From assembly GCA_964036045.1 (NCBI GenBank), contig OZ038383.1, forward strand, positions 64,547,725-64,611,724: a DNA stretch of 64,000 bases, written 5' to 3'. Shown piece after piece: positions 26,431 through 64,000 of the stretch (within the stretch, counting starts at the first letter, position 1; each line of letters opens with the position of its first letter). The notes under the pieces were generated by a model. The model saw only the letters and a list, made by a program, of their open reading frames with translations, was not told where the DNA came from and ran no database searches. A program made the position numbers and the translations under genes. The DNA is from Eutreptiella sp. 'Long Island Sound 2002' (taxonomy: Eukaryota > Euglenozoa > Euglenophyceae > Eutreptiales > Eutreptiaceae).

Positions 26431-26654
26431 AAAAGAGGGCACGGGAGAGCAAGAAGCAACATAATATGGATTCGAAAGGACACATATGGAGACATACATT
26501 GCAATCATGAGTGAAGTATGAGCCTAGATTGGTTTCAAGTGGTGTGCAATTGTTTGGCAAAGGCAAAGCATGGAACAAGGTGGGCACAAAAGGCACAACA
26601 ATGGAATTTTTCAACTTGAAACAACCACGTGGTGCAAACAAATACCCCCAGTAT

Positions 26655-26690
26655 AAGGCCGTATACTCGAAGTATACGGCCGTATATGTA
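26655..26690. repeat. left-tip palindromes of element A
   Basis: Two overlapping copies of the 16-bp palindrome GTATACGGCCGTATAC (the first degenerate) lie just inside the left tip. Three copies lie at 44937-45012 inside the right tip. They are a plausible subterminal binding site for the transposase. Confidence 0.75.
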
Positions 26691-26713
26691 ACTACGAAGC
26701 GAGCCCCGGATAC

Positions 26714-27427
26714 TGTACATTCGCCAACTCCTGGTCAACTCCATGTCGAGAGCATTCAACTTGCTTGTACTTGTGCACTGTGTTGTTGCTACGCCTTGTG
26801 CATGAAACGTGAGGAACTATGTATATTTTACAGCTTATGGGTGCGTTGCTTTGTTGTTATGTTGCAACATGTGGGTTTTTTGGGTGGAAGCCAACTTTTT
26901 GGAAGCCAAGTCAGAGTTGGCGCGCCAACTTGGCACTTGGCGCGCGCCAAGTCCGGTTTTGGCGCGCGCCAAGTCCGGTTTTGGCACGCGCCAGTTACTG
27001 CCCCATTCTTCCTGTTTGTTTGCACCCCGTGCCCCTTACACCCTTCATGCATTCCCTTTGCCTTCTAGGCATCTCACCACTTTATTCTTCTGATGCCTGC
27101 AAAGCAACCCAAGAAGGGCAAGGGGAAGAAGGTGACAGTCGTCGCTGACCCCACGTCTGCCCCACCCCCCAGCCCCCGCTGCAGCACCTAACCCCGAGGT
27201 GCAGGCCGTGCTCGACGCCCACATCGCCAACGTCGGCTCGGAGCACTTCCCCGCGGGCTATTTTCCCATCCCCTACACCCTCACCCCCCCGGACGCCGAA
27301 TCCTTCCCCCAGCCCCCCCCCCTCCGCCAACCCGTGGAGGCCGCCCTCTTCGGCCAGTGGGACCAGCCGGGCAATCCCTACTTGGTCTGGCGAATTGACG
27401 CCACCCGCGTCAACTTCGCCCTGACCA
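26714..27427 (+). repeat. direct repeat, left copy, with 5' end of gene A
   Basis: About 713 bp nearly identical to 36847-37558. It holds the upstream region, a GGCGCGCC-palindrome array (26925-26996) and the first ~110 codons of gene A (ATG 27093). Copy 2 differs by two small indels near the palindromes. The left copy of gene A stops matching at 27427, where unrelated GC-rich DNA begins, so it is a truncated 5' fragment. Both copies share the same apparent frameshift in the C-run near codon 25. Confidence 0.9.
26925..26996. promoter_or_regulatory. TTGGCGCGCGCCAA array upstream of gene A (copy 1)
   Basis: Four adjacent palindromes, 12-14 bp, alternate with spacers of AGTCCGGTTT type, about 100 bp upstream of the gene A start. 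The duplicate at 37050-37132 has three to four. The position matches the palindrome array upstream of gene A in element B. A regulatory or transposase-binding role is inferred. Confidence 0.6.
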
Positions 27428-28139
27428 AGGGGATTCCGACGGGGAGCAACCACCAGCCAGGCGGAAAGCACGAAAGAGGGACAAGCGCACGGAGAGCCGA
27501 GAGGCGGAAGGCCAACGAAGCAAACAACGCACAGCGCCGAGGCCCAGGGCACCCGGGGCCGGAAACCAGAGAAAGCCGGAGACAACGGGGGCGCACAAGG
27601 GAAGAAGGGAAAAAAAAAAAAAAAAAACACCACCAAGGCACCAAAAAGGAGCGCCAAAAACCGCGAGACACAAAAAGGGAGGGGGGGGGGGGGGGGCACC
27701 ACCAAGAGCAGCCAACGGCCAAGCGGGAGACACAAACGAGGCGCGAGCGCACGAAGAGCCAGGCAGCGGGAGGCCGAGAAAAACAACCAAAGCACAGCGC
27801 CAAGGCAACGAGGAACGGCAAGGGCAGCGGGAGAGAGGGGGGCAACCCCAGCCCGGAGGGGGCCGAGCAAAGCAAAAAGACAAAGCGGCCAAAGGAAAAG
27901 GTGAGGCGCACCACAACGCGCCCGGGAGGCCGGCCCGCCCGACCCGGCCACAAAGAGCAAGCACACGCACGCCAGCCGCCGTCCGGATGGACGAGTGCGC
28001 GCCCGGAGGGTACCCAGCCCCTGCCGGCTACGAACAGCCGCCGTCCGGATGGACGTGTGTGCGCCCGGAGGGTACCCAGCCCCTGCCGGCTACGACAGCC
28101 GCCGTCCGGATGGACGTGTGAGCGCCCCGCAGCGACGCC
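27428..28139. other. GC-rich insert flank with homopolymers and 61-bp triple repeat
   Basis: This stretch separates the truncated gene A from the 65-bp satellite. It includes a run of about 19 A (27608-27627), a run of about 16 G (27681-27697) and three ~61-bp units starting CAGCCGCCGTCCGGATGGAC at ~27973, 28033 and 28095. Long open frames cross it on both strands only because stops are rare at this composition. I recognise no protein. Confidence 0.6.
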
Positions 28140-31100
28140 CCGCACAGCAACACAACACACCGAGCGGGCACACCGGTGAACAGGAGCCAGGAGGCCCAGG
28201 ACGCCGCACACGCAACACAACACACCGAGCGGGCACACCGGTGAACAGGAGCCAGGAGGCCCAGGACGCCGCACACGCAACACAACACACCGAGCGGGCA
28301 CACCGGTGAACAGGAGCCGGGAGGCCCAGGACGCCGCACACGCAACACAACACACCGAGCGGGCACACCGGTGAACAGGAGCCAGGAGGCCCAGGACACC
28401 GCACACGCAACACAACACACCGAGCGGGCACACCGGTGAACAGGAGCCAAGAGGCCCAGGACACCGCACACGCAACACAACACACCGAGCGGGCACACCG
28501 GTGAACAGGAGCCGGGAGGCCCAGGACGCCGCACACGCAACACAACACACGGAGCGGGCACACCGGTGAACAGGAGCCAGGAGGCCCAGGACGCCGCACA
28601 CGCAACACAACACACCGAGCGGGCACACCGGTGAACAGGAGCCAGAAGGCCCAGGACGCCGCACACGCAGCACAACACACCGAGCGGGCACACCGGTGAA
28701 CAGGAGCCAGGAGGCCCAGGACGCCGCACACGCAACACAACACACCGAGCGGGCACACCGGTGAACAGGAGCGAGGAGGCCCAGGACGCCGCACACGCAA
28801 CACAACACACCGAGCGGGCACACCGGTGAACAGGAGCCAGGAGGCCCAGGACGCCGCACACCCAACACAACACACCGAGCGGGCACACCGGTGAACAGGA
28901 GCCAGGAGGCCCAGGACACCGCACACGCAACACAACACACCGAGCGGGCACACCGGTGAACAGGAGCCGGGAGGCCCAGGACGCCGCACACGCAACACAA
29001 CACACCGAGCGGGCACACCGGTGAACAGGAGCCAGGAGGCCCAGGACAGCGCACACCCAACACAACACACCGAGCGGGCACACCGGTGAACAGAAGCCGG
29101 GAGGCCCAGCACACCGCACACGCAACACAACACACCGAGCGGGCGCACCGGTGAACAGGAGCCAGGAGGCCCAGGACGCCGCACACGCAACACAACACAC
29201 CGAGCGGGCACACCGGTGAACAGGAGCAAGGAGGCCCAGGACGCCGCACACGCAACACAACACACCGAGCGGGCACACCGGTGAACAGGAGCCAGGAGGC
29301 CCAGGACGCCGCACACGCAACACAACACACCGAGCGGGCACACCGGTGAACAGGAGCCAGGAGGCCCAGGACACCGCACACGCAACACAACACACCGAGC
29401 GGGCACACCGGTGAACAGGAGCCAGGAGGCCCAGGACACCGCACACGCAACACAACACACCGAGCGGGCACACCGGTGAACAGGAGCCAGGAGGCCCAGG
29501 ACGCCGCACACGCAACACAACACACCGAGCGGGCTGACCGGTGAACAGGACCCAGGAGGCCCAGGACACCGCACACGCAACACAACACACCGAGCGGGCA
29601 CACCGGTGAACAGGAGCCGGGAGGCCCAGGACGCCGCACGCGCAACACAACACACCGAGCGGGCACACCGGTGAACAGAAGCCAGGAGGCCCAGGACGCC
29701 GCACACGCAACACAACACACCGAGCGGGCACACCGGTGAACAGGACCCAGGAGGCCCAGGACACCGCACACCCAACACAACACACCGAGCGGGCACACCG
29801 GTGAACAGAAGCCGGGAGGCCCAGGACACCGCACACGCAACACAACACACCGAGCGGGCACACCGGTGAACAGGAGCCAGGAGGCCCAGGACACCGCACA
29901 CGCAACACAACACACCGAGCGGGCACACCGGTGAACAGGAGCCAGGAGGCCCAGGACGCCGCACACGCAACACAACACACCGAGCGGGCACACCGGTGAA
30001 CAGGACCCAGGAGGCCCAGGACACCGCACACCCAACACAACACACCGAGCGGGCACACCGGTGAACAGGGGCCGGGAGGCCCAGGACACCGCACACGCAA
30101 CACAACACACCGAGCGGGCGCACCGGTGAACAGGAGCCGGGAGGCCTAGGACACCGCACACGCAACACAACACACCGAGCAGGCACACCAGTGAACAGGA
30201 GCCGGGAGGCCCAGGACACCGCACACGCAAAACAACACACCGAGCGGGCACACCGGTGAACAGGAGCCGGGAGGCCCAGGACACCGCACACGCAACGCAA
30301 CACACCGAGCGGGCACACCGGTGAACAGGAGCCGGGAGGCCCAGGACACCGCACAGGCAACACAACACACCGAGCGGGCACACCGGTGAACAGGAGCCAG
30401 GAGGCCCAGGACACCGCACACGCAACACAACACACCGAGCGGGCACACCGGTGAACAGGAGCCGGGAGGCCCAGGACGCCGCACACGCAACACAAAACAC
30501 CGAGCGGGCACACCGGTGAACAGAAGCCGGGAGGCCCAGCACACCGCACACGCAACACAACACACCGAGCGGGCGCACCGGTGAACAGGAGCCGGGAGGC
30601 CCAGGACGCCGCACACGCAACACAACACACCGAGCGGGCACACCGGTGAACAGGAGCCAGGAGGCCCAGGACACCGCACACGCAACACAACACACCGAGC
30701 GGGCACACCGGTGAACAGGAGCCAGGAGGCCCAGGACGCCGCACACGCAACACAACACACCGAGCGGGCACACCGGTGAACAGGAGCCAGGAGGCCCAGG
30801 ACACCGCACACGCAACACAACACACCGAGCGGGCACACCGGTGAACAGGAGCCAGGAGGCCCAGGACAGCGCACACGCAACACAACACACCGAGCGGGCA
30901 CACCGGTGAACAGGAGCCAGGAGGCCCAGGACGCCGCACACGCAACACAACACACCGAGCGGGCACACCGGTGAACAGGACCCAGGAGGCCCAGGACACC
31001 GCACACGCAACACAACACACCGAGCGACCACACCGGTGAACAGGAGCCGGGAGGCCCAGGACGCCGCACGCGCAACACAACACACCGAGCGGGCACACCG

Positions 31101-34100
31101 GTGAACAGAAGCCAGGAGGCCCAGGACACCGCACACGCAACACAACACACCGAGCGGGCACACCGGTGAACAGGAGCCAGGAGGCCCAGGACACCGCACA
31201 CGCAACACAACACACCGAGCGGGCACACCGGTGAACAGGAGCCAGGAGGCCCAGGACGCCGCACACGCAACACAACACACCGAGCGGGCACACCGGTGAA
31301 CAGGACCCAGGAGGCCCAGGACACCGCACACCCAACACAACACACCGAGCGGGCACACCGGTGAACAGGGGCCGGGAGGCCCAGGACACCGCACACGCAA
31401 CACAACACACCGAGCGGGCGCACCGGTGAACAGGAGCCGGGAGGCCTAGGACACCGCACACGCAACACAACACACCGAGCAGGCACACCGGTGAACAGGA
31501 GCCGGGAGGCCCAGGACACCGCACACGCAAAACAACACACCGAGCGGGCACACCGGTGAACAGGAGCCGGGAGGCCCAGGACACCGCACACGCAACGCAA
31601 CACACCGAGCGGGCACACCGGTGAACAGGAGCCGGGAGGCCCAGGACACCGCACAGGCAACACAACACACCGAGCGGGCACACCGGTGAACAGGAGCCAG
31701 GAGGCCCAGGACACCGCACACGCAACACAACACACCGAGCGGGCACACCGGTGAACAGGAGCCGGGAGGCCCAGGACGCCGCACACGCAACACAAAACAC
31801 CGAGCGGGCACACCGGTGAACAGAAGCCAGGAGGCCCAGGACACCGCACACCCAACACAACACACCGAGCGGGCACACCGGTGAACAGAAGCCGGGAGGC
31901 CCAGGACACCGCACACGCAACACAACACACCGAGCGGGCACACCGGTGAACAGGAGCCAGGAGGCCCAGGACACCGCACACGCAACACAACACACCGAGC
32001 GGGCACACCGGTGAACAGGAGCCAGGAGGCCCAGGACGCCGCACACGCAACACAACACACCGAGCGGGCACACCAGTGAACAGGACCCAGGAGGCCCAGG
32101 ACACCGCACACCCAACACAACACACCGAGCGGGCACACCGGTGAACAGGGGCCGGGAGGCCCAGGACACCGCACACGCAACACAACACACCGAGCGGGCG
32201 CACCGGTGAACAGGAGCCGGGAGGCCTAGGACACCGCACACGCAACACAACACACCGAGCAGGCACACCGGTGAACAGGAGCCGGGAGGCCGAGGACACC
32301 GCACACGCAAAACAACACACCGAGCGGGCACACCGGTGAACAGGAGCCGGGAGGCCCAGGACACCGCACACGCAACGCAACACACCGGGCGGGCACACCG
32401 GTGAACAGGAGCCGGGAGGCCCAAGACACCGCACAGGCAACACAACACACCGAGCGGGCACACCGGTGAACAGGAGCCAGGAGGCCCAGGACACCGCACA
32501 CGCAACACAACACACCGAGCGGGCACACCGGTGAACAGGAGCCGGGAGGCCCAGGACGCCGCACACGCAACACAAAACACCGAGCGGGCACACCGGTGAA
32601 CAGAAGCCGGGAGGCCCAGCACACCGCACACGCAACACAACACACCGAGCGGGCGCACCGGTGAACAGGAGCCGGGAGGCCCAGGACGCCGCACACGCAA
32701 CACAACACACCGAGCGGGCACACCGGTGAACAGGAGCCAGGAGGCCCAGGACACCGCACACGCAACACAACACACCGAGCGGGCACACCGGTGAACAGGA
32801 GCCAGGAGGCCCAGGACGCCGCACACGCAACACAACACACCGAGCGGGCACACCGGTGAACAGGAGCCAGGAGGCCCAGGACACCGCACACGCAACACAA
32901 CACACCGAGCGGGCACACCGGTGAACAGGAGCCAGGAGGCCCAGGACACCGCACACGCAACACAACACACCGAGCGGGCACACCGGTGAACAGGAGCCAG
33001 GAGGCCCAGGACGCCGCACAGGCAACACAACACACCGAGCGGGCACACCGGTGAACAGGACCCAGGAGGCCCAGGACACCGCACACGCAACACAACACAC
33101 CGAGCGGCCACACCGGTGAACAGGAGCCGGGAGGCCCAGGACGCCGCACACGCAACACAACACACCGAGCGGGCACACCGGTGAACAGGACCCAGGAGGC
33201 CCAGGACACCGCACACCCAACACAACACACCGAGCGGGCACACCGGTGAACAGGGGCCGGGAGGCCCAGGACACCGCACACGCAACACAACACACCGAGC
33301 GGGCGCACCGGTGAACAGGAGCCGGGAGGCCTAGGACACCGCACACGCAACACAACACACCGAGCAGGCACACCGGTGAACAGGAGCCGGGAGGCCCAGG
33401 ACACCGCACACGCAAAACAACACACCGAGCGGGCACACCGGTGAACAGGAGCCGGGAGGCCCAGGACACCGCACACGCAACGCAACACACCGAGCGGGCA
33501 CACCGGTGAACAGGAGCCGGGAGGCCCAGGACACCGCACAGGCAACACAACACACCGAGCGGGCACACCGGTGAACAGGAGCCAGGAGGCCCAGGACACC
33601 GCACACGCAACACAACACACCGAGCGGGCACACCGGTGAACAGGAGCCGGGAGGCCCAGGACGCCGCACACGCAACACAAAACACCGAGCGGGCACACCG
33701 GTGAACAGAAGCCAGGAGGCCCAGGACACCGCACACCCAACACAACACACCGAGCGGGCACACCGGTGAACAGAAGCCGGGAGGCCCAGGACACCGCACA
33801 CGCAACACAACACACCGAGCGGGCACACCGGTGAACAGGAGCCAGGAGGCCCAGGACACCGCACACGCAACACAACACACCGAGCGGGCACACCGGTGAA
33901 CAGGAGCCAGGAGGCCCAGGACGCCGCACACGCAACACAACACACCGAGCGGGCACACCAGTGAACAGGACCCAGGAGGCCCAGGACACCGCACACCCAA
34001 CACAACACACCGAGCGGGCACACCGGTGAACAGGGGCCGGGAGGCCCAGGACACCGCACACGCAACACAACACACCGAGCGGGCGCACCGGTGAACAGGA

Positions 34101-36270
34101 GCCGGGAGGCCTAGGACACCGCACACGCAACACAACACACCGAGCAGGCACACCGGTGAACAGGAGCCGGGAGGCCGAGGACACCGCACACGCAAAACAA
34201 CACACCGAGCGGGCACACCGGTGAACAGGAGCCGGGAGGCCCAGGACACCGCACACGCAACGCAACACACCGGGCGGGCACACCGGTGAACAGGAGCCGG
34301 GAGGCCCAAGACACCGCACAGGCAACACAACACACCGAGCGGGCACACCGGTGAACAGGAGCCAGGAGGCCCAGGACACCGCACACGCAACACAACACAC
34401 CGAGCGGGCACACCGGTGAACAGGAGCCGGGAGGCCCAGGACGCCGCACACGCAACACAAAACACCGAGCGGGCACACCGGTGAACAGAAGCCGGGAGGC
34501 CCAGCACACCGCACACGCAACACAACACACCGAGCGGGCGCACCGGTGAACAGGAGCCGGGAGGCCCAGGACGCCGCACACGCAACACAACACACCGAGC
34601 GGGCACACCGGTGATCAGGAGCCAGGAGGCCCAGGACACCGCACACGCAACACAACACACCGAGCGGGCACACCGGTGAACAGGAGCCAGGAGGCCCAGG
34701 ACGCCGCACACGCAACACAACACACCGAGCGGGCACACCGGTGAACAGGAGCCAGGAGGCCCAGGACACCGCACACGCAACACAACACACCGAGCGGGCA
34801 CACCGGTGAACAGGAGCCAGGAGGCCCAGGACACCGCACACGCAACACAACACACCGAGCGGGCACACCGGTGAACAGGAGCCAGGAGGCCCAGGACACC
34901 GCACACGCAACACAACACACCGAGCGGGCACACCGGTGAACAGGAGCCAGGAGGCCCAGGACGCCGCACACGCAACACAACACACCGAGCGGGCACACCG
35001 GTGAACAGGACCCAGGAGGCCCAGGACACCGCACACCCAACACAACACACCGAGCGGGCACACCGGTGAACAGGGGCCGGGAGGCCCAGGACACCGCACA
35101 CGCAACACAACACACCGAGCGGGCGCACCGGTGAACAGGAGCCGGGAGGCCTAGGACACCGCACACGCAACACAACACACCGAGCAGGCACACCGGTGAA
35201 CAGGAGCCGGGAGGCCCAGGACACCGCACACGCAAAACAACACACCGAGCGGGCACACCGGTGAACAGGAGCCGGGAGGCCCAGGACACCGCACACGCAA
35301 CGCAACACACCGAGCGGGCACACCGGTGAACAGGAGCCGGGAGGCCCAGGACACCGCACAGGCAACACAACACACCGAGCGGGCACACCGGTGAACAGGA
35401 GCCAGGAGGCCCAGGACACCGCACACGCAACACAACACACCGAGCGGGCACACCGGTGAACAGGAGCCGGGAGGCCCAGGACGCCGCACACGCAACACAA
35501 AAGACCGAGCGGGCACACCGGTGAACAGAAGCCGGGAGGCCCAGGACACCGCACACGCAACACAACACACCGAGCGGGCGCACCGGTGAACAGGAGCCGG
35601 GAGGCCCAGGACACCGCACACGCAACACAACACACCGAGCGGGCACACCGGTGAACAGGAGCCGGGAAGCCCAGGACACCGCACACGCAACACAACACAC
35701 CGAGCGGGCACACCGGTGAACAGGAGCCGGGAGGCCCAGGACACCGCACACACAACACAACACACCGAGCGGGCGCACCGGTGAACAGGAGCCGGGAGGC
35801 CCAGGACACCGCACACGCAACACACCACACCGAGCGGGCACACCGGTGAACAGGAGCCGGGAGGCCCAGGACACCGCACACGCAACACAACACACCGAGC
35901 GGGCGCACCGGTGAACAGGAGCTGGGAGGCCCAGGACACCGCACACGCAACACAACACACCGAGCGGGCACACCGGTGAACAGGAGCCGGGAGGCCCAGG
36001 ACACCGCACACGCAACACAACACACCGAGCGGGCACACCGGTGAACAGGAGCCGGGAGGCCCAGGACACCGCACACGCAACACAACACACCGAGCGGGCG
36101 CACCGGTGAACAGGAGCCGGGAGGCCCAGGACACCGCACACGCCACACACCACACCGAGCGGGCACACCGGTGAACAGGAGCCGGGAGGCCCAGGACACC
36201 GCACACCCGACACAACACACCGAGCGGGCACACCGGTGAACAGGAGCCGGGAGGCCCAAGACACCGCACA
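28140..36270. repeat. 65-bp satellite, 125 units
   Basis: The unit contains CGAGCGGGCACACCGGTGAA. CGAGC occurs at 28161 and at 36221, exactly 124 periods of 65 bp apart, so there is no net indel over 8 kb. Variation is point substitution only. The marker GAGGCCTAGG occurs at 30141, 31441, 32221, 33326, 34106 and 35146, at spacings of 20, 12, 17, 12 and 16 units, showing higher-order repeats (a ~29-unit, 1,885-bp period is clear). Because 65 is not divisible by three and the minus strand lacks stops, minus-strand frames of up to ~2,000 codons exist, but they only translate the satellite. Confidence 0.97.
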
Positions 36271-36846
36271 CACGTAGGGCGGTCGGGGGACAGGAAAGAA
36301 GCAACACCCCATGGGTCGGACACACTGGGGCGACCCAGCCGACCCACCGGGCCAGTGGCAGGAGCGGTACTCCAAGGCTGCTGGTCCGAGCCCGGCCAGG
36401 CTGCAACGGGGACCATGGCAAACGTCACCCGGAGCCATGGATGCAACCGGTGACAGGCGAGCCGGTACACAGTCCAGGAGGGGGTCGCCTGCCAAGCGGA
36501 GCGGCCCCGCAACTCAAGCCACAAGGGTGAGGCGGTCGTACCGTAGACAAGCGGGAGCAATACCCCTTGTGGTGAGAGATACTCCACACGGCTGGGCAAC
36601 CCCCAGAGCTGCCGCCCGAAGGAGGGGGCATGTGGCCCTACTCATGGACACATGTGGGGACACCCTCCCACCTGGGACACATGGACTGGGTGGCCGCGAC
36701 AATGCCTTCCCAAGCACATGCGGGAGCGGCTCAAGAGGCACCTAACATAGGGCAGTGGGAGGAACAGGACGTCCCCTTGGTAAGACCTTCTTCCTGCACC
36801 GTCAAAGGAGGCATCCCGAGCTCCCGAAGATACCTACCTACCTACC
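36271..36846. other. unassigned interval between satellite and direct repeat
   Basis: GC-rich sequence with a 144-codon plus frame (36311-36745) of Arg/Gly/Pro-rich, low-information composition, not convincing as a gene. It ends in a CCTACCTACCTACC run directly before the right copy of the 713-bp direct repeat. Confidence 0.4.
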
Positions 36847-37558
36847 TGTACATTCGCCAACTCCTGGTCAACTCCATGTCGAGAGCATTCAACTTGCTTG
36901 TACTTGTGCACTGTGTTGTTGCTACGCCTTGTGCATGAAACGTGAGGAACTATGTATATTTTACAGCTTATGGGTGCGTTGCTTTGTTGTTATGTTGCAA
37001 TATGTGGGTTTTTTGGGTCGAAGCCAACTTTTTGGAAGCCAAGTCAGAGTTGGCGCGCCAACTTGGCACTTGGCGCGCCAAGTCCGGTTTTGGCGCGCGC
37101 CAAGTCCGGTTTTGGCGCGCGCCAGTTACTGCCCCATTCTTCCTGTTTGTTTGCACCCCGTGCCCCTTACACCCTTCATGCATTCCCTTTGCCTTCTAGG
37201 CATCTCACCACTTTATTCTTCTGATGCCTGCAAAGCAACCCAAGAAGGGCAAGGGGAAGAAGGTGACAGTCGTCGCTGACCCCACGTCTGCCGCACCCCC
37301 CAGCCCCCGCTGCAGCACCTAACCCCGAGGTGCAGGCCGTGCTCGACGCCCACATCGCCAACGTCGGCTCGGAGCACTTCCCCGCGGGCTATTTTCCCAT
37401 CCCCTACACCCTCACCCCCCCGGACGCCGAATCCTTCCCCCAGCCCCCCCCCCTCCGCCAACCCGTGGAGGCCGCCCTCTTCGGCCAGTGGGACCAGCCG
37501 GGCAATCCCTACTTGGTCTGGCGAATTGACGCCACCCGCGTCAACTTCGCCCTGACCA
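36847..37558 (+). repeat. direct repeat, right copy
   Basis: Near-identical copy of 26714-27427, offset by ~10,131 bp. This copy continues into the rest of gene A, so it is the one connected to the element body. It carries a GGCGCGCC-palindrome array (37050-37132) upstream of the ATG at 37224. Confidence 0.9.
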
Positions 37559-39554
37559 GGGGGGTTCTCAGCAGGTTCTGCTGTGCCGTGAGGGGGCGGT
37601 ACCCCACGACGCTCGCGGTCGAGTTGAAGCTGTCGCAAGTGGCCCTTGCGGGCCTCAACAAGACCCTGAAGCTGTGCACTGCTGCAGCGTCAAAAGAGTT
37701 CGTCAACGTTCTCGCGCTGCAGGAGATGCCGCCTCAGGGTCTCGACCCCGAGGAGCAGTGGCTGTGGGTGGATCCAGTCAGAAAAAGTGGCTGGAAGCAC
37801 CCCATGGCCAATGACGCCGTCGTGGGGTACCAGACGGTGAAGGTGCAGGCCTGGGATGCAGTAGCTCCCACGGAGTTCTCCACCAACCGTCGCTTGCGCA
37901 CCCACATCCATGACAGCAACCACCCCACCCTCTACACCACCAACGCCCCCTTCACCATGCTTGGCATGGGTTGCGCCCACCCCTCCTTCCACAACTCCTA
38001 CCCCGTCGCCACCCACGACATCCCCGACCCCCCCATTGTCACGGAGGGGGGTTTTGCCGCGGCGGGCTACCGCCAGCATGACCACATCATCCCTGAGGAT
38101 ATGTGGGCCAGACTGGCGGAGCTCGCCACGGTGAAACTCGACCCGTCGATGCTCGAGGAGGTGGACCTTTAGGCCCCCGGGGAAGGTGGGGGGCGCTATC
38201 AGACGACGGTCTCCAGCGTCCCCCACTGGCTCCCGGACCACCTTTGGCAGGCAGTTCTGGCCCTGCTGGGGTTCTCCCTCCCGCCGCTGGAGGGACTTGA
38301 GGCCTTGTGACCCAAGATCATCGAGCGGTGGGAGGCGGAACCCTGGAAGGGCTTCCAGATCCCCCACCGCGATTTTGCACTGTCAGTGAAACAGTCACTG
38401 CAGTGCATGGTCGTGTTCATCCCCCTCACCACCTCCCCCCCGTCCAAGTCCCTCCAGGTGTGCCCGGGCACGCACGGGGGCTATCACGCTGCGAATCGGT
38501 GGGATATTGTTATCCAACCGATTCGCAGCGTGACGCTCCTCCGCGGGACGGTGATCCACCGCGGTGCGGGCGGGCCTAGCCGGGCGCTGTTCATCCCGTT
38601 TGCACCCGCCGGCTACCGGTCGCGCATGGCGACCGTGGAGCCGGAGAGTGTAACGGAGCTGATGATTAGTGTTCCGGTGATGCCTTCCGACCTTCTGGCC
38701 GAGGGGGCTGCAGTCGGGTCTCCTCTGGGCACAGAGGGGTCTCCTCTGGGCACAGAGGACATTTTGGACTTCAGCCCCCCCGACCAGGGGTCTGAGGAGT
38801 CAGCCCCGGCCGAGGCAGTCCCCGCGACCAACCCCGTGCCTGCCCCCCAAGAGGAGGACATGGCGGACGCGCCGGCGGATGGGGAGCCTGCCCCTCCCCC
38901 ACAGAGTGCGGCACGGGAGGCGGACCCCGTGCCTGCTCCCCAAGAGGAGGACATGCCGGAGGCGCCGGCGGATGCGGAGGAGAGGCTGGCCGCGCCGGCT
39001 GATGCGGATGCCGCCCCCCCCCCCCCCCCACAGAGTGCGGCAGAGGAGGACGTCCTCACTCCCGACGCGATCCCCTAGCCAGTCTGCTTTGTGTCGCAGG
39101 CTGTGCAGCCGTTGGACCCTCCGGTGCCCTACATGGGGGACATCCACCTCCTGCAGGAGGGGATGTGTGCGGGGCTGTTCTTGACCCCGACCGACCACGC
39201 GCACGCGGGGCCCACTGGTGAGACAGCGGATGACTGCCTCACTCCGCACATCCACCGGTGGTGGCTCCCCCCCCCCCGAGGCGACCGACCGGTGCCGCGT
39301 GCGCTGCACTGGCCGGCACGGTGGTGTACTCGTTTGCTGCGCTGGGCGCCGCGTTCGTGCGGGAGCCAGGGGCCGCCCGCATGCCCTGGATGCAAATGGC
39401 CCACTTCACGCAGCCCCTGAGCTCCCAGGACGCCGAGATGTTGGGGCTAGTCCGCGTGGACGAGGCACGCCGTGCCATCTGCTCCTGCGGCGAGAAGGTG
39501 TGCCCGCGCGGTGCTTTGCATGCACACGATTTTGTCACACGTCACACGTCACAC

Positions 39555-39690: not shown

Positions 39691-39699
39691 TGGCGTGTA

Positions 39700-40616: not shown

Positions 40617-40618
40617 TA

Positions 40619-50361: not shown

Positions 50362-50363
50362 TA

Positions 50364-52673: not shown

Positions 52674-52679
52674 TTAAAA

Positions 52680-52850
52680 GAAATTCACATAGATTCGCAC
52701 GAAATTCGTACGAAATTCGTACGAATTTTGTGCGAATTTCACGTGAATAGAAATGTGTGAATATTCTGAAAATGTGAAATTCGTACGAAATTGGTACGAA
52801 TTTCGTACGAATTTCGTACGAATTTCGTGCGAATTTCACATGACTGTCAC
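52680..52850. promoter_or_regulatory. TTCGTACGAA palindrome array between gene A and transposase B
   Basis: Two clusters of AAATTCGTACGAATTT-type units (52690-52745 and 52775-52850) at ~12-bp spacing, with TTCACGTGAA nearby. They lie immediately upstream of the transposase-like gene on its strand. Confidence 0.75.
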
Positions 52851-53270
52851 AGAATTTCTGCCAAAGCCTCATCCTTCTGCCCTCGTTGACCCTCACAAAG
52901 CAATCTCAGGATGGTGCTCATGGGCTATCACACACCCAGTCCAGTGGCTGTCATCCCGGCTGTCACTTAGCCAGCAGTGTAAAATGTCAGGGGGCATAGC
53001 ATACCCCAAATAAAATACAAACAGTTCCGCAGAAAAAATCGCAAACAAGTCAGGGGGCACACCGTACCCCAATGAATGTACAAACAGTGCTGCAGAAAAT
53101 TTCGCACAGTGGGGGGGGAGTACCCCACATATCGGTCAAACTGCCCATGCTTGGGGGGGGGGGGCGCGATAACATTCGTCGTGGTTAGAAAGGACAGGTG
53201 CTCCGGAGGGTACCTACGCACCCCCCCCCCTCCGGGGAGCAGAGCTCCGGCTAGCGGTGCCCTGGGAGCT

Positions 53271-56200
53271 CTACTCCGCCACCGCCTCCACAAAGGAGGG
53301 GTCCATGGCCGCCGACGTGAGGCGGTGGGGGGGGTACTGCCGGCGCACTTCCTCCATTGGGGCAGTCACCTTGGGGGCGTCGGGGGCCACGCTGTCCACA
53401 TCGACCTGCTGGCCACTGGCCATCCTGGCCATCTGCAGGCCGGTGGACACTGCGGACATCTGGCCGGCGCATGCCTCGGCCTGGGCATGCCAGTTCTGTG
53501 CGCCGGCCAGGAGGTACCGGACACCGGCAGCACTGGCCCCCCCCTGTCACCAGGGGGGGGGGGGGGCCTCGGCACCCTCAGCCCTCTCCACTGCCTCTGC
53601 TGGTTGTGCCGCTGGCTTTGCCTTGCGCAACGTCGCCACGTCGCGCTCAAGAGTCCTCACCTTGGTGGCCAGCCGGTCACGCTCCTTGGTGACGTCCGCC
53701 AACCGCGACTCGCAGTCCCGCCTGTCCTCGTGGACCCTGGACAGACGGGCCTCGAGGTCGCGGTTGGCGGCCTCCGCGCTGATGGCGCGTGCCTCCCACG
53801 CCCCCACCCGCTGCTGGTCCACCCACTCCTGCACCACCCCCCTCTGCCCCCGCCCCCCCACCAGCTCCGCGTGCTCCGCCCGCAGTGCCCGCTCCGCCGG
53901 GGTGGCCGTACGCGGGGCTTTGGGGGGGGGGGGAGGGGCCCGTGTCCCCTTTGGGGCGCCCTTTCCGCTTGCGCGTGGGGGGGGGGTTCGTCCTCCTCGA
54001 CGTCAATGACGTCAACCACCACCCCCATCTTCCGCTGCCTCCCCACATGGACGCGCATGGCAAGCCATGCCACGTCCACCCACTCCGGCCTCCGCTGCTC
54101 CCAACCCGTGAGCACATTCAGCCCACAAATCCCAGCCGTCGTCACCGTCCCCGCCTCCCCGATCCGCGACACCCCCGTCTGCACGCGCCAGTGCCCACTC
54201 ACAAGCCGGTAGGCAAACATGCCCACCAGCTCCTGCCCCGCAGGCAAATTGGACCCCCCCCGGAGCACAATGGGGCAAGGGAAGGAGATGCGGAGGGTGC
54301 CATGCACCCCCCGCGACTCCAACTCCATGTCCCACACGGCACTGAGGTGCCGCTGCCGCCCATCGGGCCCGGGCGGCACCTGCTGGGTCCAGGCCGGATC
54401 CGGCTGCCTGGCGGCTAGGGTGACCCGGTCCAGGGGGGGGTCGTTGTGGCCGTCGCCCAACTCGTCGCGGGACGGCTGGGGCACCACTACCTCGCGCGCC
54501 ACATGCCCCCTGGCGGTGCTTGCCTCGCTGCCTCCCGAACGCCGAGAGCGCTGCGACCCCTCACTGCGCACACTGCCGGCCTCGCTTGGTGCCCGTCCAC
54601 CGCCGGTGCCTGCGGGCTGGTCGCCACCGGGGCCTTCGGCGGGCTCGGCGTGCTCCTCGGGCAATCGGGGCCGGGGCTTGTACTGGCGCTTGGTGTGGTG
54701 CCGAATATCCGGCGACCAAGCGGTGAACGGGACCTGCATGCAGATGTGGGGAGGTGTGCAAGGCACAAATTGAGAAAGGGGGAGTGGACACGAGGCAATG
54801 CAAGAGCAAAAGGAGCAAATTGGACGAAATTCACAGAAATTCGTACGAAATTCGTACGAAATTCGTACAAATTTCACATCTGGAGAAAATTCACACAAAT
54901 TTATTCACGTGAAATTCGTGCGAAATTCGTACGAATTACGTACGAATTTCGCACGAATTTCACGTGAATTTCGTCCAATTTGCCAATACACAAAGCAAAC
55001 ACACAAGCAAGCACACCTTGCAGTCGCATGGGCAGGTGATGCTCCATGCCCTGGTCCTCGCGCACTTGGGCGACCGCCACGCTAGGACCGTGTTCACCAA
55101 GTGCCACAGCGTGGTCGGCCGACCCGGGGGGGCAATGCCGGACAAGGCGAAGTGGATCTCCGACTCCGCGTCGACATCGCCCCCCTTGGCGACCTCCAGC
55201 TGGTGCACGCTGCCCACGAAGAACAGCATGCACTGGGGGCCGACCTCGATGACGGCGAGGTCGGAGGCCGGGGCCGACCGAGAGATGAAGGTGGGGTGGA
55301 AGGGGCAGGTGGGGGGGCCTGCCGGGAGCGTCTGGGGGGGGTCGGCGAAGAGGGCCTGGACAGCCTCCCCCTCACACAACCCCACCCTCCCAACCGCCCC
55401 CTTCCCCACCCACAACACCTGGTCCACGCTGGGGAGGTCCCAGCTGGACAAATCCCCAGCAACGTCCCGGGCCTCCTTGGGGGGGATGGCGTCCAAGTGT
55501 GTGGTGTTGGCCTGGTGGTGTTTGTGTCGGGGGTCGGGGGTCCACAAGTTAAAAAGAGCCCCCTGCAGCCCATCCTTGGAGTCGGGGAGGGCAGGCAATC
55601 CATGATGGCGGCTGGTGGCCACCATCAGCAGCATGTCCCCCCGATGCAGCTCAACGGTGTCCCAGCGCGCCTCCCCCGCCTCCCCCAGGGCCGTCCCCGC
55701 CTGCACCGCCACCTGGTAGTCCTCTGACAAGCAGAGGAACCTACTGAGGTGGCAGTCCCCCACCTCCCTGTCGTTGGGGCGGAGGACGTCGGGGTGGGTG
55801 GACACGTCGGTGTGGGGGAGCTGCGGCCCACTCCCCACACTGGCCACAATGACGCTGCCCGGCGTCATTGGGTTGAGGTCCCCAACCCCAGGGACACTTT
55901 CGGTGAGGTGGGGGTTGAACTTCTTGAAGAGAGGCCCCCCCACCCCCGACCCCAACGTGCTCTTGCTTTGCCACCGGCGGGGGAGCGCACGATCCTTGGC
56001 CTGCTCCTCACTCCGCGCGGCGTTGAAAAGGAGCTCAAAATTCTTTGCGACGACTTTTTCGTCGCCGCTGCCCTACGCCTTCATCACCTTGTTCCACCAC
56101 ACCTCACAATCCCGTGCCTCCACAAGCCCCCGAAGCACAATGTAGCCGTTCCCATCAACAAAGCTGAGGGGCGGCTGAGAGGGGCCAACCCTGTCGGGGG

Positions 56201-56936
56201 CGGGGTCAGGGCTGCCCGTCACCCCATGAGGGGGGTCGGGAAGGGGTTCGGTGCGGAGGGGGGGTTCACTCGAAATGAAGGGGGGGGCGCATGAGGCACC
56301 ACGGTACCATTGCAAAGAAGTTGTGCTATAGAAGGTGGGGTGGGTGACATCGGGGACGTGCACCTGGGGGGGGATGGTGGGATGGAAAGGGGCGACGCCC
56401 AAATCATCCCACCACCGGGGGTTGGCAAGATGCCAAGAAAAGGGGAAAAAAGAGTGGTCTGCCGGTGCACCTGCATCAAGATCCTGCAGGCACACCGTAT
56501 CGCAGTGGGGGGGGGTGTGGACGAGGTTAGTGGTGGGGTACACCTGGACGTGGGCGTCCTTAGGCTTCCCCACAAGGTTATTCCTCATCGAGTTGAGGAG
56601 CTGGTCAACACTGGAGGGGAGAGGGGTTAGATGGAGAAATTTGAGGGTGGGGAGTTGGTGGCGCAGTTCCCTCCACAGGGTTGTGGCCCATCCCCTCCCC
56701 CCGAGGTAGGTGTTGCGGGTGGGGCTGCGCATGTCGATGTGGATGACATCGGGGGAGGGGTCGAGGGAGGCTGCCCAGCCCACGATGTCATCCACCCCCA
56801 GTGCCTCCGACTCGTACGTTGCCTCCTCCAATTGATGGTGGGCAACGGGGAGGGCTTGGTAGTGGGCGAGGGTGTCAGCTGAGGGGTCGGGGCGCGAGGC
56901 CAGGCTTGCGAGTTGAGACATAGTCTGCTGCGACAT
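53271..56936 (-). pseudogene. Gene A of element B: dioxygenase-like protein with coiled coil
   Basis: ATG at 56936 (minus). Exon 1 runs to 55017, with one in-frame TAG at 56073-56075. A 283-bp intron (55016-54734) contains the palindrome array. Exon 2 runs 54733-53271. Exon 1 shows YPTTNLVHTPPHCDT, HPTFYSTT, and later LPHTDVSTHP followed ~70 residues on by HRGDMLLMVATSRHHGLPAL. His-x-Asp plus a distal His in a GD...H turn resembles 2OG-Fe(II) oxygenases. Exon 2 has WEQRRPEWVDV, an acidic stretch, a coiled coil (ARLSRVHEDRRDCESRLADV) and an acidic tail ending TAG at 53271. G-runs near 53985, 53930 and 53555 shift the frame. The oxygenase call is tentative; a DNA-base or histone substrate would be a guess. 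Confidence 0.5.
54825..54972. promoter_or_regulatory. TTCGTACGAA palindrome array inside gene A intron
   Basis: Two clusters of AAATTCGTACGAATTT-type palindromes (54830-54875, 54905-54970) fill most of the 283-bp intron. Element A's gene A intron at the same coding position carries GGCGCGCC palindromes instead. Confidence 0.75.
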
Positions 56937-57001
56937 TGTTAAAATAGAAGAACGCGAGGGCTTTGAGAGCTGTAACAAAGCGAAAGAGTGGAAAGGAGGG
57001 T

Positions 57002-57130
57002 AAATTCGTACGAAATTCGTACGAAATTCGTGCGAATTCGTACGAAATTCGTGCGAATTTCACATTCTCGTGAATCTGTGAATCTAGCGTGAATTTCTGC
57101 GTGAATTTAGGTGCGTGAATTTCACATTCA
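57002..57130. promoter_or_regulatory. TTCGTACGAA array upstream of gene A of element B
   Basis: Copies of AAATTCGTACG and AATTCGTGCGAATTT, then CACGCGAATCTCACC and similar, ~65 bp upstream of the gene A start on its strand. A diverged copy is at 40290-40440 in the deletion derivative. A promoter or transposase-binding role is inferred. Confidence 0.65.
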
Positions 57131-57317
57131 CGCGAATCTCACCAAATGAGTTAAACCATGCGGGGACTTTAAACCTCTAAATTGCACCTATTTGTTGCAT
57201 CTTACCTGCTTACTTTGGGCGAAGGTAGCACGACAAAAGCACACGATAGCACCAAGTTACGAGCAAAACACAGCAAAATTGGGTGAAATTCACGGTACCG
57301 TGAATCTCGGATTCAAA

Positions 57318-57335
57318 CGGCCGGTTCACGAAGGG
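57318..57335 (-). repeat. right terminal inverted repeat of element B
   Basis: CGGCCGGTTCACGAAGGG, followed by TA. Recurs at 40599-40616 at the right end of the derivative. Confidence 0.85.
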
Positions 57336-57337
57336 TA

Positions 57338-57630
57338 CACTCCTTGACAAGCAGGGGGGCGGACGTCACAGGGCCAGGCAAGTTGGCAGAAAGCAGACAA
57401 TTCCGCAGAACCGCTGGAGAAATAGGGTGGGGTCCAGTCCTGAAGATATGGGATGTAGCGTTCTAGGGCGTGGTGCGGAAACCAAAGTCCACACCATGTT
57501 CAAAGCGGGTCGCCACAGGGCGCCTCACATTGGCATCACCCATCGTAAACCCCTCAGGACCGCCAAGGCGACGGACCCCAAGGAGCTTTTGATGGTGCTC
57601 GCACCAAGCGTGTGCAGCAGCAAGGGCCAT
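57338..57630 (-). pseudogene. Reverse-transcriptase-like pseudogene, 5' part
   Basis: From ATG at 57630 the minus strand reads MALAAAHAWCEHHQKLLGV and continues ~55 codons to a TAG inside a 38-bp repeated motif (57448-57485). The same frame then runs to the element B boundary. Joining across element B with one TA leads, with a one-base shift, into the frame that begins at 50361. So this is probably the N-terminus of the RT-like gene at 47949-50361. The ~45 bp upstream (57637-57680) resemble the promoter of element B's gene A (GGCTTTGAGAGCT). Confidence 0.4.
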
Positions 57631-57688
57631 TATCAAAGAATACGAAGGCTTTGAGAGCTACAGCGAAAAGGGGAAACATAAAATGAAG

Positions 57689-57846
57689 CGCGATAACCCA
57701 CGCGATAACCCACGCGTTAACTAGGTTATCACGCGGTAACCCCCGCGATAACCCCCGCGATAACTAGGTTATCGCGCGATAACCGACGCGATAACTAGTG
57801 CTCTAACCCCGTTCTAACCCCGCGATAACTAGTTAGAGCACACAAA
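57689..57846. promoter_or_regulatory. GCGATAAC / CTAACTAGTTAG palindrome array
   Basis: Units of CGCGATAACC and the full palindrome GTTATCGCGCGATAAC (near 57768) give way to TCTAACCCCG and AACTAGTTAGAGCAC. It lies between the RT-like 5' end and gene X. The array at 60130-60252 has the same parts in inverted order. Confidence 0.8.
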
Positions 57847-57991
57847 GATCAAATCGCAAAAAGTGCAAAACGGGCAATATCGAGCAAACGAAACATGGAA
57901 GGCACATTGTTGCATCATAGTGCACCCATGGTTAGGCATGTAACATGTGAAATTCCGGGTTCCAACCATATTAACAACACCCAAAATTGGG

Positions 57992-58029
57992 GGGGTTCCG
58001 CACCACGCCCTAGAACGCTGCATCCCATA
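57992..58029 (+). repeat. 38-bp inverted repeat, left
   Basis: Perfect inverted match to 59938-59975 (begins GGGGTTCCGCACCACGCCCT). A third copy with one mismatch lies at 57448-57485 in the right-hand orientation. The two facing copies bracket gene X and could be transposon TIRs. No target duplication was recognised. Confidence 0.85.
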
Positions 58030-58229
58030 TCGCACACACGTTTCGGCGCCCTTTTCACCGTTGACACCACTGATTTGCATAGGTCATGTAGGTAGGTAGG
58101 CATAGGCGCGCTGGAGAAATGGGACTTCACAGCCTGTCTGATGGTTCTCTCTGTGCTCGGACACAAAGTGGGGGTCCGCAGTACAACCCTTCGTGGCATC
58201 GTAAACCTACAGTTCTTTTTCAAGACACT

Positions 58230-59937: not shown

Positions 59938-59975
59938 TATGGGATGCAGCGTTCTAGGGCGTGGTGCGGAACCCC
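59938..59975 (-). repeat. 38-bp inverted repeat, right
   Basis: Perfect inverted partner of 57992-58029. Beyond both copies, CAATTTTGGG occurs at slightly different distances, so the original inverted repeat may have been longer. Confidence 0.85.
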
Positions 59976-60129
59976 TAGTTAGAACGCAATTTCTGGAACA
60001 CCCACCTACCCTCAATTTTGGGGCAAACCACCTAAAAAAATGGATTCAGCACCCTCAAAAACCCCCCATCCCCTTTCTTTCCCCCCATAACCCTCATTGT
60101 AGGGGTGGTTTTTTGGGGGGGGGGTCAAA

Positions 60130-60252
60130 GAGTTAGAGCACAGTTAGAACAGAGTTAGAACGCAGTTAGAGCACCTTGCTCTAACTAGTTATCGCGCTAG
60201 TTATCGCGCGATAACTCAGTTATCGCGCAGTTATCGCGGGTAGTTATCGCGC
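60130..60252. promoter_or_regulatory. GTTATCGCGCGATAAC / AGTTAGAGCA array
   Basis: AGTTAGAGCAC units, then CTAACTAGTTATCGCG and GTTATCGCGCGATAAC. It lies ~70 bp beyond the stop of the third transposase-like gene and upstream of gene X on the minus strand. Confidence 0.8.
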
Positions 60253-60321
60253 ACCCCTCCTCCATCCCCCACTAGGACAAACAACACAAAACACTTGGCA
60301 CAAAGCATGTATGGTCGTTTT

Positions 60322-61623
60322 TCATACAAAGTCATCAATGTCTGAGGCTTTGGCTGCCTCCAGTCCCAAAAGCCCTTGCTCCAGGGCGGTCATGGACATG
60401 CAATGGTGCATGTGGCGGAGGGACATACTTGGCCTCACCAAGGACCAACCCCTAAAACAATTTTTGAGCCTCCTCTTGTAAGGCCCATGCCGATACTCCG
60501 TTGGGATGGAGGAAAACTGAAAAATGTTCCTCCTTTTCGGGGGGTACCAGGGGGGACGGCCTAAAGGGTGGTCTCAGTGCGCTTTGCAATGCCGTTTAGG
60601 ATGCGGCATGCTGCATGTTGGTAGTCCCCCCGGCCGCCTATCAGGGGTCACACTTCTCAAGAATGCCCCCCATCTTGAGGTGGACTCCACCCCCATTTGC
60701 TCAACAATACCATTGGCCCCGGGGTCTTTGCACAACCAACACTTAGACCCAGCCCCCCCCATTGCTTGCATCCCCTTCCCATCCCCCGTCAAAATGACAG
60801 TGCAAGTCAAAAATTGGTTTTGAAAGAGGACAACGTCCTCCTCCACATCCCTCACCTCTTGGTTGAGGTAGGCGGAGATGTCCAGGCTTCTCAAAAAAGC
60901 CTGTTCATCCCCGCCATCCATGCAAAACCATGAGGCCCATAGCTTCACCTTCGAAGCATACTTTGCCCCCCCCCATACATTGACCCCTACATCCGCACGG
61001 GTAGAGGATGCCTTCCACAAGGAAGTCGCCTCAACCGAAATGACAACAATGGCAACGCCATTAGGGGGGGGTTTCCCAATAACTCGGGCCATAGATATTG
61101 CATTTTGCACAATTGGCTGCAAAGGCACATGGGCAGCTGCCCTATTGCGGCCTGTGGTAGACTTTACAATGGTTGCTTGGGGAAAGTAGGGCATGATCCG
61201 TTGCCGAACGGTCCTTAGGTCCCGTTGTGTGCAACGGCGGGGCATTCGCAAAAGGGCCCGCTGGGAAAGATGCATGCTGCATGCCATGGGTAGCATGCTC
61301 AGGGCCTCATGCTCCTGAGCTGTGAATGCAAGATGGCCACCAAGTCGGCCATACAGGGCAGTGCACGCCCCATCACTTAAACAGACTTCTCCTTTGGTGT
61401 TGGTGCCACACCCAATGTTCGGACCACCCAATAGAACTCGCACCAGCCGCTGAACAGCCTTCAACCGCCGCCGCCGGGCCTTGGGGCACTGCAAATCGGT
61501 GTACCGCCGGAGGTTAGCTGTGTTCAGAGCCCTCAGGGCCTCGTTAACAACATTATCCATGAAGAATAAGAGGGCCTGGGCAGGAAATGAGGGAGGGTTT
61601 TGAAGCAAGGGCCCAAAAAACAC
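60322..61623 (-). pseudogene. Transposase-like protein of element III, internally deleted
   Basis: The N-terminal frame (61623-60574) carries VISVEATSLWKASS, where Glu replaces the Asp seen in both paralogues. It also has WASWFCMDGGDEQAF, TGDGKGMQAMGG and the CWLC zinc pair. It then stops in another frame at 60574. Around 60500-60322 a further frame reads GPYKRRLKNCFRGW and ends FV-TGA at 60322-60324; this matches the C-terminal block after the catalytic Glu of the element B protein. The DYGLHGV and WIDH blocks are missing, so the middle is deleted. The start codon is uncertain. Flanked on both sides by the same palindrome family. Confidence 0.55.
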
Positions 61624-62195
61624 ACGCGATAACCCACGCGATAACCTCCGCGATAACTAGGTTATCGCGCGATAACCCCCGCGATAACCCCCCGCGATAA
61701 CTAGTTAGAAGGCGATAACCCCCCGCGATAACTAGTTAGAGCACCCAGTTAGAGCGCGATAACTACCGCGATAACTAGTTAGAGCAGAGGTTAGTGCACT
61801 ATGCACGTGCGCACTAACTGGTGCTCTAACCCCGTTCTAACCCCGTTCTAACTAGTTAGAGCACACAAAGACCCCGTTCTAACCCCGGGCAGGAAATGAG
61901 GGAGGGTTTTGAAGCAAGGGCCCAAAAAACACACGCGATAACCCACGCGATAACCTCCGCGATAACTAGGTTATCGCGCGATAACCCCCGCGATAACCCC
62001 CCGCGATAACTAGTTAGAAGGCGATAACCCCCCGCGATAACTAGTTAGAGCACCCAGTTAGAGCGCGATAACTACCGCGATAACTAGTTAGAGCAGAGGT
62101 TAGTGCACTATGCACGTGCGCACTAACTGGTGCTCTAACCCCGTTCTAACCCCGTTCTAACTAGTTAGAGCACACAAAGACCCCGTTCTAACCCC
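61578..62195. repeat. 309-bp tandem duplication with palindrome array
   Basis: 61578-61886 is repeated almost exactly at 61887-62195. Each copy contains the 5' end region of the transposase-like gene, then GCGATAAC and CTAACTAGTTAG units including GTGCACTATGCACGTGCGCAC. Confidence 0.9.
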
Positions 62196-63857
62196 GTTCT
62201 AACCCCGTTCTAACTAGTTAGAGCACACAAAGACCCCGTTCTAACCCCGTTCTAACTAGTTAGAGCACACAAAGACCCCGTTCTAACCCCGTTGTAACTA
62301 GTCAGAGCACACAAAGACCCCGTTCTAACCCCGTTCTAACTAGTTAGAGCACACAAAGACCCTGTTCTAACCCCGTTCTAACTAGTTAGAGCACACAAAG
62401 ACCCCGTTCTAACCCCGTTCTAACTAGTTAGAGCACACAAAGACCCCGTTCTAACCCCGTTCTAACTAGTTAGAGCACACAAAGACCCCGTTCTAACCCC
62501 GTTCTAACTAGTTAGAGCACACAAAGACCCCGTTCTAACCCCGTTGTAACTAGTCAGAGCACACAAAGACCCCGTTCTAACCCCGTTCTAACGTCGTTCT
62601 AACTAGTTAGAGCACACAAAGACCCCGTTCTAACCCCGTTCTAACTAGTTAGAGCACACAAAGACCCCGTTCTAACCCCGTTCTAACTAGTTAGAGCACA
62701 CAAAGACCCCGTTCTAACCCTGTTCTAACTAGTTAGAGCACACAAAGACCCCGTTCTAACCCCGTTCTAACTAGTTAGAGCACACAAAGACCCCGTTCTA
62801 ACCCCGTTCTAACTAGTTAGAGCACACAAAGACCCCGTTCTAACCCCGTTCTAACTAGTTAGAGCACACAAAGACCCCGTTCTAACCCCGTTCTAACTAG
62901 TTAGAGCACACAAAGACCCCGTTCTAACCCTGTTCTAACTAGTTAGAGCACACAAAGATCCCGTTCTAACCCCGTTCTAACTAGTTAGAGCACACAAAGA
63001 CCCCGTTCTAACCCCGTTCTAACTAGTTAGAGCACACAAAGACCCCGTTCTAACCCCGTTCTAACTAGTTAGAGCACACAAAGACCCCGTTCTAACCCCG
63101 TTCTAACTAGTTAGAGCACACAAAGACCCCGTTCTAACCCCGTTCTAACTAGTTAGAGCACACAAAGACCCCGTTCTAACTCTGTTCTAACTAGTTAGAG
63201 CACACAAAGACCCCGTTCTAACCCCGTTCTAACTAGTTAGAGCACACAAAGACCCCGTTCTAACCCCGTTCTAACTAGTTAGAGCACACAAAGACCCCGT
63301 TCTAACCCCGTTCTAACTAGTTAGAGCACACAAAGACCCCGTTCTAACCCCGTTCTAACTAGTTAGAGCACACAAAGACCCCGTTCTAACCCCGTTCTAA
63401 CTAGTTAGAGCACACAAAGACCCCGTTCTAACCCCGTTCTAACTAGTTAGAGCACACAAAGACCCCGTTCTAACCCCGTTCTAACTAGTTAGAGCACACA
63501 AAGACCCCGTTCTAACCCCGTTCTAACTAGTTAGAGCACACAAAGACCCCGTTCTAACCCTGTTCTAACTAGTTAGAGCACACAAAGACCCCGTTCTAAC
63601 CCCGTTCTAACTAGTTAGAGCACACAAAGACCCCGTTCTAACCCCGTTCTAACTAGTTAGAGCACACAAAGACCCCGTTCTAACCCCGTTCTAACTAGTT
63701 AGAGCACACAAAGACCCCGTTCTAACCCCGTTCTAACTAGTTAGAGCACACAAAGACCCCGTTCTAACCCTGTTCTAACTAGTTAGAGCACACAAAGACC
63801 CCGTTCTAACCCCGTTGTAACCCCGTTCTAACTAGTTAGAGCACACAAAGACCCCGT
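62148..63857. repeat. 42-bp satellite, about 41 units
   Basis: The unit contains CTAACTAGTTAGAGCACACA and a doubled CCCCGTTCTAA, with an exact 42-bp period (for example GAGCAC at 62221 and 62263). Rare units have an extra or altered CCCCGTT block. It lies between gene A (right) and the transposase-like gene (left) of element III, where the other elements have short palindrome arrays, so it looks like an expanded intergenic array. Confidence 0.95.
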
Positions 63858-64000
63858 GGCGGCCGCTTGCTCCACCAAAACCTGGCAAGCGTCCGTCACG
63901 TGGGTGGCCACACTGGCCCCCAAGGCCTCCACATCGAGGGCCTCAGGGGGGGGCTAGGCCGCCACCTTCGCCACCTCCCACGGCTTGGGGGAGGGGTTGG
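63828..64000 (-). pseudogene. Gene A of element III, C-terminal end (partial)
   Basis: Entering from the right edge, the minus strand reads PSPKPWEVAKVAA in one frame to a TAG at 63954. After a slip in the C-run at ~63947-63954 it reads EALDVEALGASVATHVTDAC and on to a TAG at 63828-63830 that lies inside the first satellite unit. Composition and position (just upstream of the transposase on the same strand) fit the C-terminus of a gene A homologue. Similarity to the other two is only compositional. Confidence 0.35.

Follow-up and report, generated by a model that had tools for sequence, protein, structure and literature searches.

The window considered here, a 64,000-nucleotide stretch of contig OZ038383.1 (forward strand, positions 64,547,725–64,611,724) in the 2.28 Gb, 2205-contig assembly GCA_964036045.1 of the euglenophyte Eutreptiella sp. 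'Long Island Sound 2002', carries in its right half three families of DNA transposons, designated A, B and III, together with their derivatives (Table 1). Each family fills the same four non-coding slots with arrays of its own palindrome: upstream of a gene termed gene A (slot 1), within the predicted intron of that gene (slot 2), between gene A and the transposase gene (slot 3) and after the transposase (slot 4). A first-pass annotation had proposed this shared layout with family-specific palindromes, and it is borne out within the window as well as by copies at other loci. We see about an even chance that the arrays constitute a self-activation module comparable to that of the VANDAL transposons of Arabidopsis, in which the gene A product would bind the arrays of its own family and relieve silencing.

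Element B contains gene A, with two predicted exons, and a transposase, and the GTAC at both of its ends would fit a 4 bp palindromic target-site duplication. A genome search with the B transposase gave at least 72 match rows; in one copy (L033) exon 1 and exon 2 of gene A and a 599-residue transposase frame are all open. Elements A and III are each known here from one copy. The intron array of A, previously placed at 39555–40706, is indeed an A array, but consists of two stretches split by a nested B element (39697–40618). For III, slots 1 and 2 had been predicted from the layout and were located beyond the window: gene A, its intron array and its upstream array were found in L031 (189–350, 2142–2282). 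A fourth family, IV, which lies outside the window, also places its arrays in these slots; its palindrome is a relative of that of B.

The window holds 111 perfect palindromes of at least 12 bp where a crude estimate would expect about 20; 39 of these lie in the III satellite, and the rest belong to the array positions or to an unrelated repeat (16–24 kb). The array palindromes besides the IV motif are AAATTCGTACGAATTT, TTGGCGCGCGCCAA and GTTATCGCGCGATAAC. Motif matches were counted in eight element copies, with up to three mismatches in 14 positions (two in 12 for CTAACTAGTTAG), and compared with the mean of 30 dinucleotide shuffles. The B motif gave 25, 24, 23 and 22 matches in four B copies (0.03–0.10 in shuffles), all of them within the four slots, with none in slot 4 of L033. 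The corresponding counts were 22 for the A motif in A (0.77 in shuffles) and, for the two motifs of III in that element, 14 for TTATCGCGCGATAA (0.10) and 53 for CTAACTAGTTAG (0.30); the IV motif was matched 14 and ten times in the two IV copies.

Matches in foreign elements were distributed as follows. The A motif had none in the four B copies and one in III, and each B copy contained one match to CTAACTAGTTAG; element A contained four B matches, which belong to the nested B derivative, three IV matches and one each of TTATCGCGCGATAA and CTAACTAGTTAG. B elements contain matches to the IV motif and IV elements matches to the B motif (3–7 matches), and a single IV match within exon 2 of the IV copy L035 seems fortuitous. 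In the window as a whole, all 29 B-motif matches fall in B or its derivative (40302–40335), 25 of 26 A-motif matches in A (the other at 48469) and nine of ten TTATCGCGCGATAA matches in III or a short III-type element, while the 11 matches to the IV motif comprise six in B arrays and five elsewhere.

The palindromes had been described as unrelated, which holds among A, B and III but not for B compared with IV, whose 11 bp units contain TTCGTACGAA and TTCGCGCGAA, respectively. The divergence of the palindromes is thus graded. B and IV have similar ends (TGTACCC, GTGAACGG, TTTGAAT) and differ in the centres of their array palindromes; their likeness is 58% for the transposase (over 72% of the query), 43–48% for exon 1 of gene A and 29% over 136 residues for exon 2. 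A search with the IV transposase listed 93 matches, of which 91 were 65–100% alike and two, at 59%, were B-like. Of the two IV copies, L035 fills all four slots and L036, where most of gene A is missing, fills three. Four more distant matches (L037–L040; 65–75% like IV) form a group V, in which inspection by eye found sites of the AAAATCGCGCGATTTT or TTCGCGCGAA type in the locatable slots, in short and decayed arrays; by the same inspection, no array follows the transposase in L037 and no gene A was found in L038. Group V agrees with the graded picture, and the palindromes seem to change stepwise with the transposase, A and III being far from B, IV and V.

The occupancy of slots 3 and 4 was surveyed in the 30 best-scoring of the at least 72 B-transposase matches, a choice that probably favours young copies. 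Here, the first-pass annotation's check for homologous elements lacking arrays came out, for B, in favour of the proposed layout: slot 3 is filled in all 30 copies and slot 4 in 28, with no slot 4 array in L007 and L013 at the threshold used. Slot 1 was filled in all seven copies in view (the window copy, L032, L033, L034, L041, L044 and L045) and slot 2 in all eight (the same copies and L043). Among six further B regions checked for these two slots, L043 shows slot 2 alone, the array of L046, where exon 1 is missing, could be slot 1 or slot 2, L044 has one B-motif match seemingly outside the element, and in L042 neither gene A nor the B motif was found. The number of units varies from six to 11 in slot 3 and is three or four in 26 of the 30 copies in slot 4. 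Of 319 spacings of up to 80 bp between B-motif matches in the 30 loci, 279 measure exactly 11 bp and a further 30 measure 53 bp. Fourteen of the 380 matches in these loci lie off slots 3 and 4, in L006, L011 and L015; they probably represent slot 1 drawn near through deletion of gene A, a deletion demonstrated for L006 only, which is the same copy as that in L031.

Sequence comparison identifies A, B and III as DNA transposons with homologous transposases. Those of A and B matched in blastp (7e-14 over 107 residues), and hhalign aligned A (probability 98.4 over 83 columns) and III (probability 91 over 270 columns) with the B/IV alignment. B-type transposases show, by eye, the order D...D, CWVC, HLWIDH, E; the order D, D, C(2)C, H(3–4)H, E can likewise be followed in B and its relatives and in A, and without its last part in III. 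This is the order given for the CMCT clade of DDE transposases in PMC12730594. Membership of the clade is not claimed, because the transposase had no informative family match in Pfam. Searches of Pfam, NCBIfam and the PDB with the transposase or gene A returned nothing useful, and a scan of viral contigs with two single transposases found no relatives.

In gene A, the residues before the predicted intron are CSCGEK in A, CPCDCK in B, CPCHQ in III and CPCECG in IV, followed by GTGTG or GTATG. That the predicted intron opens after a short cysteine motif in each case is a good argument that gene A has a common origin, III included. The intron holds an array in all four families, and the common coding position claimed for the intron array is supported as a predicted splice-donor context. 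Exon 2, the least conserved part between B and IV, probably contains a coiled coil, to judge from weak Pfam near-matches for B and from inspection by eye in A, B and IV. Upstream, gene A of A, B and IV shows by eye an HxD, a second H 64–69 residues further on and a K or R 8–10 residues beyond it. The pattern HxD...H...K/R is that of 2-oxoglutarate/Fe(II) dioxygenases. In an alignment of 40 gene A rows, many of them decayed B copies, ten columns are conserved in at least 90% of the rows, and the H and D of HxD belong to these ten. The odds that the product is an enzyme of this type appear to us evenly balanced.

That no described system has this syntax, as the first-pass annotation supposed, proved incorrect: the VANDAL/VANC anti-silencing system of Arabidopsis, in the account of PMC5735166, nearly matches it. 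That source describes how VANC21 binds YAGTATTAY motifs that form arrays in the non-coding DNA of VANDAL21 (the introns of VANC21 and VANB21 and the region upstream of VANA21), how the targets of VANC6 carry motifs other than those of VANC21, how the arrays turn over through tandem-repeat gain and loss and how variable VANC is beside the more conserved transposase VANA; PMC10398659 also treats this system. The VANDAL arrangement shares with the elements described here the arrays of family-specific motifs that occupy non-coding DNA, introns (predicted in our case) and regions upstream of genes included, the gain and loss of repeats and a variable second gene beside a more conserved transposase; it differs in that the motifs have one orientation, whereas the sites here are palindromes. 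Neither of the VANC domains named in PMC5735166, DUF1985 and DUF287, is among the Pfam matches of gene A (expectation value, E, up to 10), nor is any Mutator family among those of the transposase. The transposases of VANDAL elements are Mutator-like. The syntax observed here is best read as the same in kind as that of VANDAL/VANC and as convergent.

The arrays may be binding sites that let each transposon family target the copies belonging to it. Binding by a dimeric protein of the family is plausible because the sites are palindromic and gene A of A, B and IV appears to encode a coiled coil. The likeliest binder would be the gene A product, acting as a dimer or multimer along sites that follow one another in steps of 11 bp in B and IV and of 22 or 42 bp in A. 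It is favoured over the transposase since B and IV share similar ends and differ in their array centres, and since exon 2 is both the least conserved part and the probable coiled coil. The likeliest effect would be relief of host silencing and activation of both element genes, as VANC brings about in VANDAL. The positions of the arrays in the intron and between the genes, and not just near the ends, favour such a role. If gene A carries an oxidative eraser domain, binding and demethylation might reside in one protein. In the transposase open reading frame of the 30 B copies, C-to-T changes number 3.4 per 1000 sites at CG, 5.9 at CHG and 1.5 at CHH (20, 34 and 30 changes, respectively), which weakly suggests host methylation at CG and CHG sites.

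Several observations weigh against self-activation through gene A. The C-to-T excess in the CG and CHG contexts is slight, and the reading frame is under selection. The second H of the dioxygenase-like pattern falls outside the ten columns that are conserved in at least 90% of the 40 rows; the Pfam matches of gene A at E up to 10 include no dioxygenase, only stray and coiled-coil near-matches, and comparison with PDB profiles gave no sensible match. AlphaFold models of gene A were too poor for a fold search (predicted local distance difference test scores of 29.9 for exon 1 and 33.2 for the middle domain). Gene A of III has no clear match to that of B in protein comparison, and no clear HxD was found in the frames read of this broken copy. 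The TTATCGCGCGATAA sites of III lie 18–87 bp apart within their arrays, without an 11 bp phase. In A, B, III and IV, about 180–420 bp separate the outer arrays from the two ends, as would be the case for transposase sites.

This last observation speaks for an alternative that we consider unlikely, namely that the arrays are sites at which the transposase, or an accessory protein, pairs the ends, the internal arrays being by-products or serving to titrate the transposase. The nested B derivative and the B copy in L031 without gene A both keep at least one outer array, as this would lead one to expect. Against it, the former has lost its 3' array, although its move may have preceded that deletion. 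Such sites would not readily account for arrays in the intron and between the genes, nor for array centres that differ between B and IV while the ends are similar. Subterminal repeats of En/Spm (CACTA) elements are bound by TNPA. They resemble the present arrays as arrays of short motifs, bound in that case by a second element-encoded protein, but the arrays here also occupy the intron and the space between the genes.

Less probable still is that host transcription factors read the arrays as promoters, enhancers or insulators, with one palindrome per family. Arrays do stand before each gene and in the intron, and their spacing in A, B and IV is regular, but one would not expect a host factor to switch its site with the transposon family, and in the window the B motif never occurs outside B and the A motif only once outside A. 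Neutral satellites grown by slippage in tolerated non-coding DNA, in line with unit numbers that differ among copies and with the turning of slot 3 of III into a 42 bp satellite of about 40 copies, are the least probable origin, given that A, B, III and IV all use one set of four slots, always with palindromic sites, that B and IV have related palindromes and that a slot 3 array persists in every one of the 30 best-scoring, probably young, B copies despite its drifting unit number.

Within the preferred reading, in which gene A activates its own family, a more specific version, which strikes us as doubtful though less so than any of these alternatives, is that each family encodes a sequence-addressed DNA eraser, joining an oxygenase domain to a fast-changing dimeric reader, with a palindromic address in every non-coding gap and with reader and address diverging together as the families diverged; anti-silencing of the VANC type would then have been invented a second time, independently and with the eraser built in. 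The nearest precedent that we found for a transposon-carried eraser is provided by fungal DNA transposons that encode TET/JBP dioxygenases (Kojima 2025, PMC12730594). As described in the main text of that paper, these elements are similar in placing a dioxygenase gene (a possible 2-oxoglutarate dioxygenase in our case) beside a transposase with a CMCT-type order of residues, and differ in that gene A has no profile match to TET/JBP. The terms 'tandem repeat' and 'VANC' are absent from this main text, and 'palindrom' occurs once, for a feature absent at the ends of TET genes. We found no description of VANC-like arrays together with a transposon-borne eraser in the open-licence literature.

Table 1. 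Transposon features of the window, with positions counted from its first nucleotide
Feature	Position	Strand	Remarks
Element A, terminal TATACGGCCGTATA palindromes	~26650–45011	+	Disrupted; 5' end doubled around satellite
A array slot 1, first 5' copy	26915–26993		
A array slot 1, second 5' copy	37048–37124		
A gene A exon 1	37224–39497	+	Disrupted; HxD...H...R pattern at 38365–38583
A array slot 2 (intron), left part	39558–39690		
Internally deleted B element nested in A intron array	39697–40618		B array kept at ~40301–40354
A array slot 2 (intron), right part	40615–40709		
A array slot 3	42092–42330		
A transposase	42431–44237	+	Disrupted
A array slot 4	44589–44705		
Element B, whole	50361–57338	-	Ends TGTACCC...GGGTACA; boundaries set by copies L031–L034 and nested copy
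B array slot 4, after transposase	50620–50705		
B transposase open reading frame	50811–52673	-	First ~70 residues out of frame relative to homologues (window copy)
B array slot 3, intergenic	52680–52850		
B gene A exon 2, likely coiled coil	53190–54734	-	Frame disrupted in window copy; end approximate
B gene A intron (predicted)	54735–55016	-	Donor GTGTGC after CPCDCK, acceptor AG
B array slot 2, intron	54825–54972		
B gene A exon 1	55017–56936	-	HxD...H...K pattern; one in-frame stop in window copy
B array slot 1, upstream of gene A	57002–57061		
Short non-autonomous III-type element	57455–58030		576 bp; III ends kept; III array 57689–57837
Element III, 3' part	59939–64000	-	Runs past window, to about L031:2470
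III array slot 4	60130–60252		
III transposase, N-terminal part only	60574–61623	-	Without H(4)H and E region
III array slot 3	61622–63857		Expanded to 42 bp satellite, ~40 copies

Some further features of the elements and of the window may be recorded. The 5' end of A is present twice, flanking an 8 kb satellite of a 65 bp unit; this minisatellite (28140–36271, about 125 copies) is nearly free of T on the + strand, with an AT skew of about 0.9. The ends of A (26673 and 44938–45011) carry palindromes of their own, TATACGGCCGTATA, the core of which, ACGGCCGT, also occurs in the left end of B (AACGGCCGTT); this core is common to the ends of A and B although their internal arrays are unrelated. 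A B copy lacking most of its gene A directly adjoins the right end of element III (L031:2474). In the left part of the window, an open frame with a Helitron-like N-terminal domain and DUF6570 (788–4789) is followed by a 219 bp repeat (8444–9932), and at 16432–23407 the perfect palindrome TTTCAGGACGATCGTCCTGAAA or its core recurs amid AGC runs, at intervals of about 600 bp in the later portion.

If the arrays do serve self-activation, sequence-specific anti-silencing would have arisen more than once, here in an apparently unrelated group of transposons. The ladder of related families, from V through IV to B and then to A and III, would make the stepwise change of a DNA address and its reader traceable. 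Should gene A prove to be an eraser, its versions would represent natural erasers aimed at different short DNA sites.

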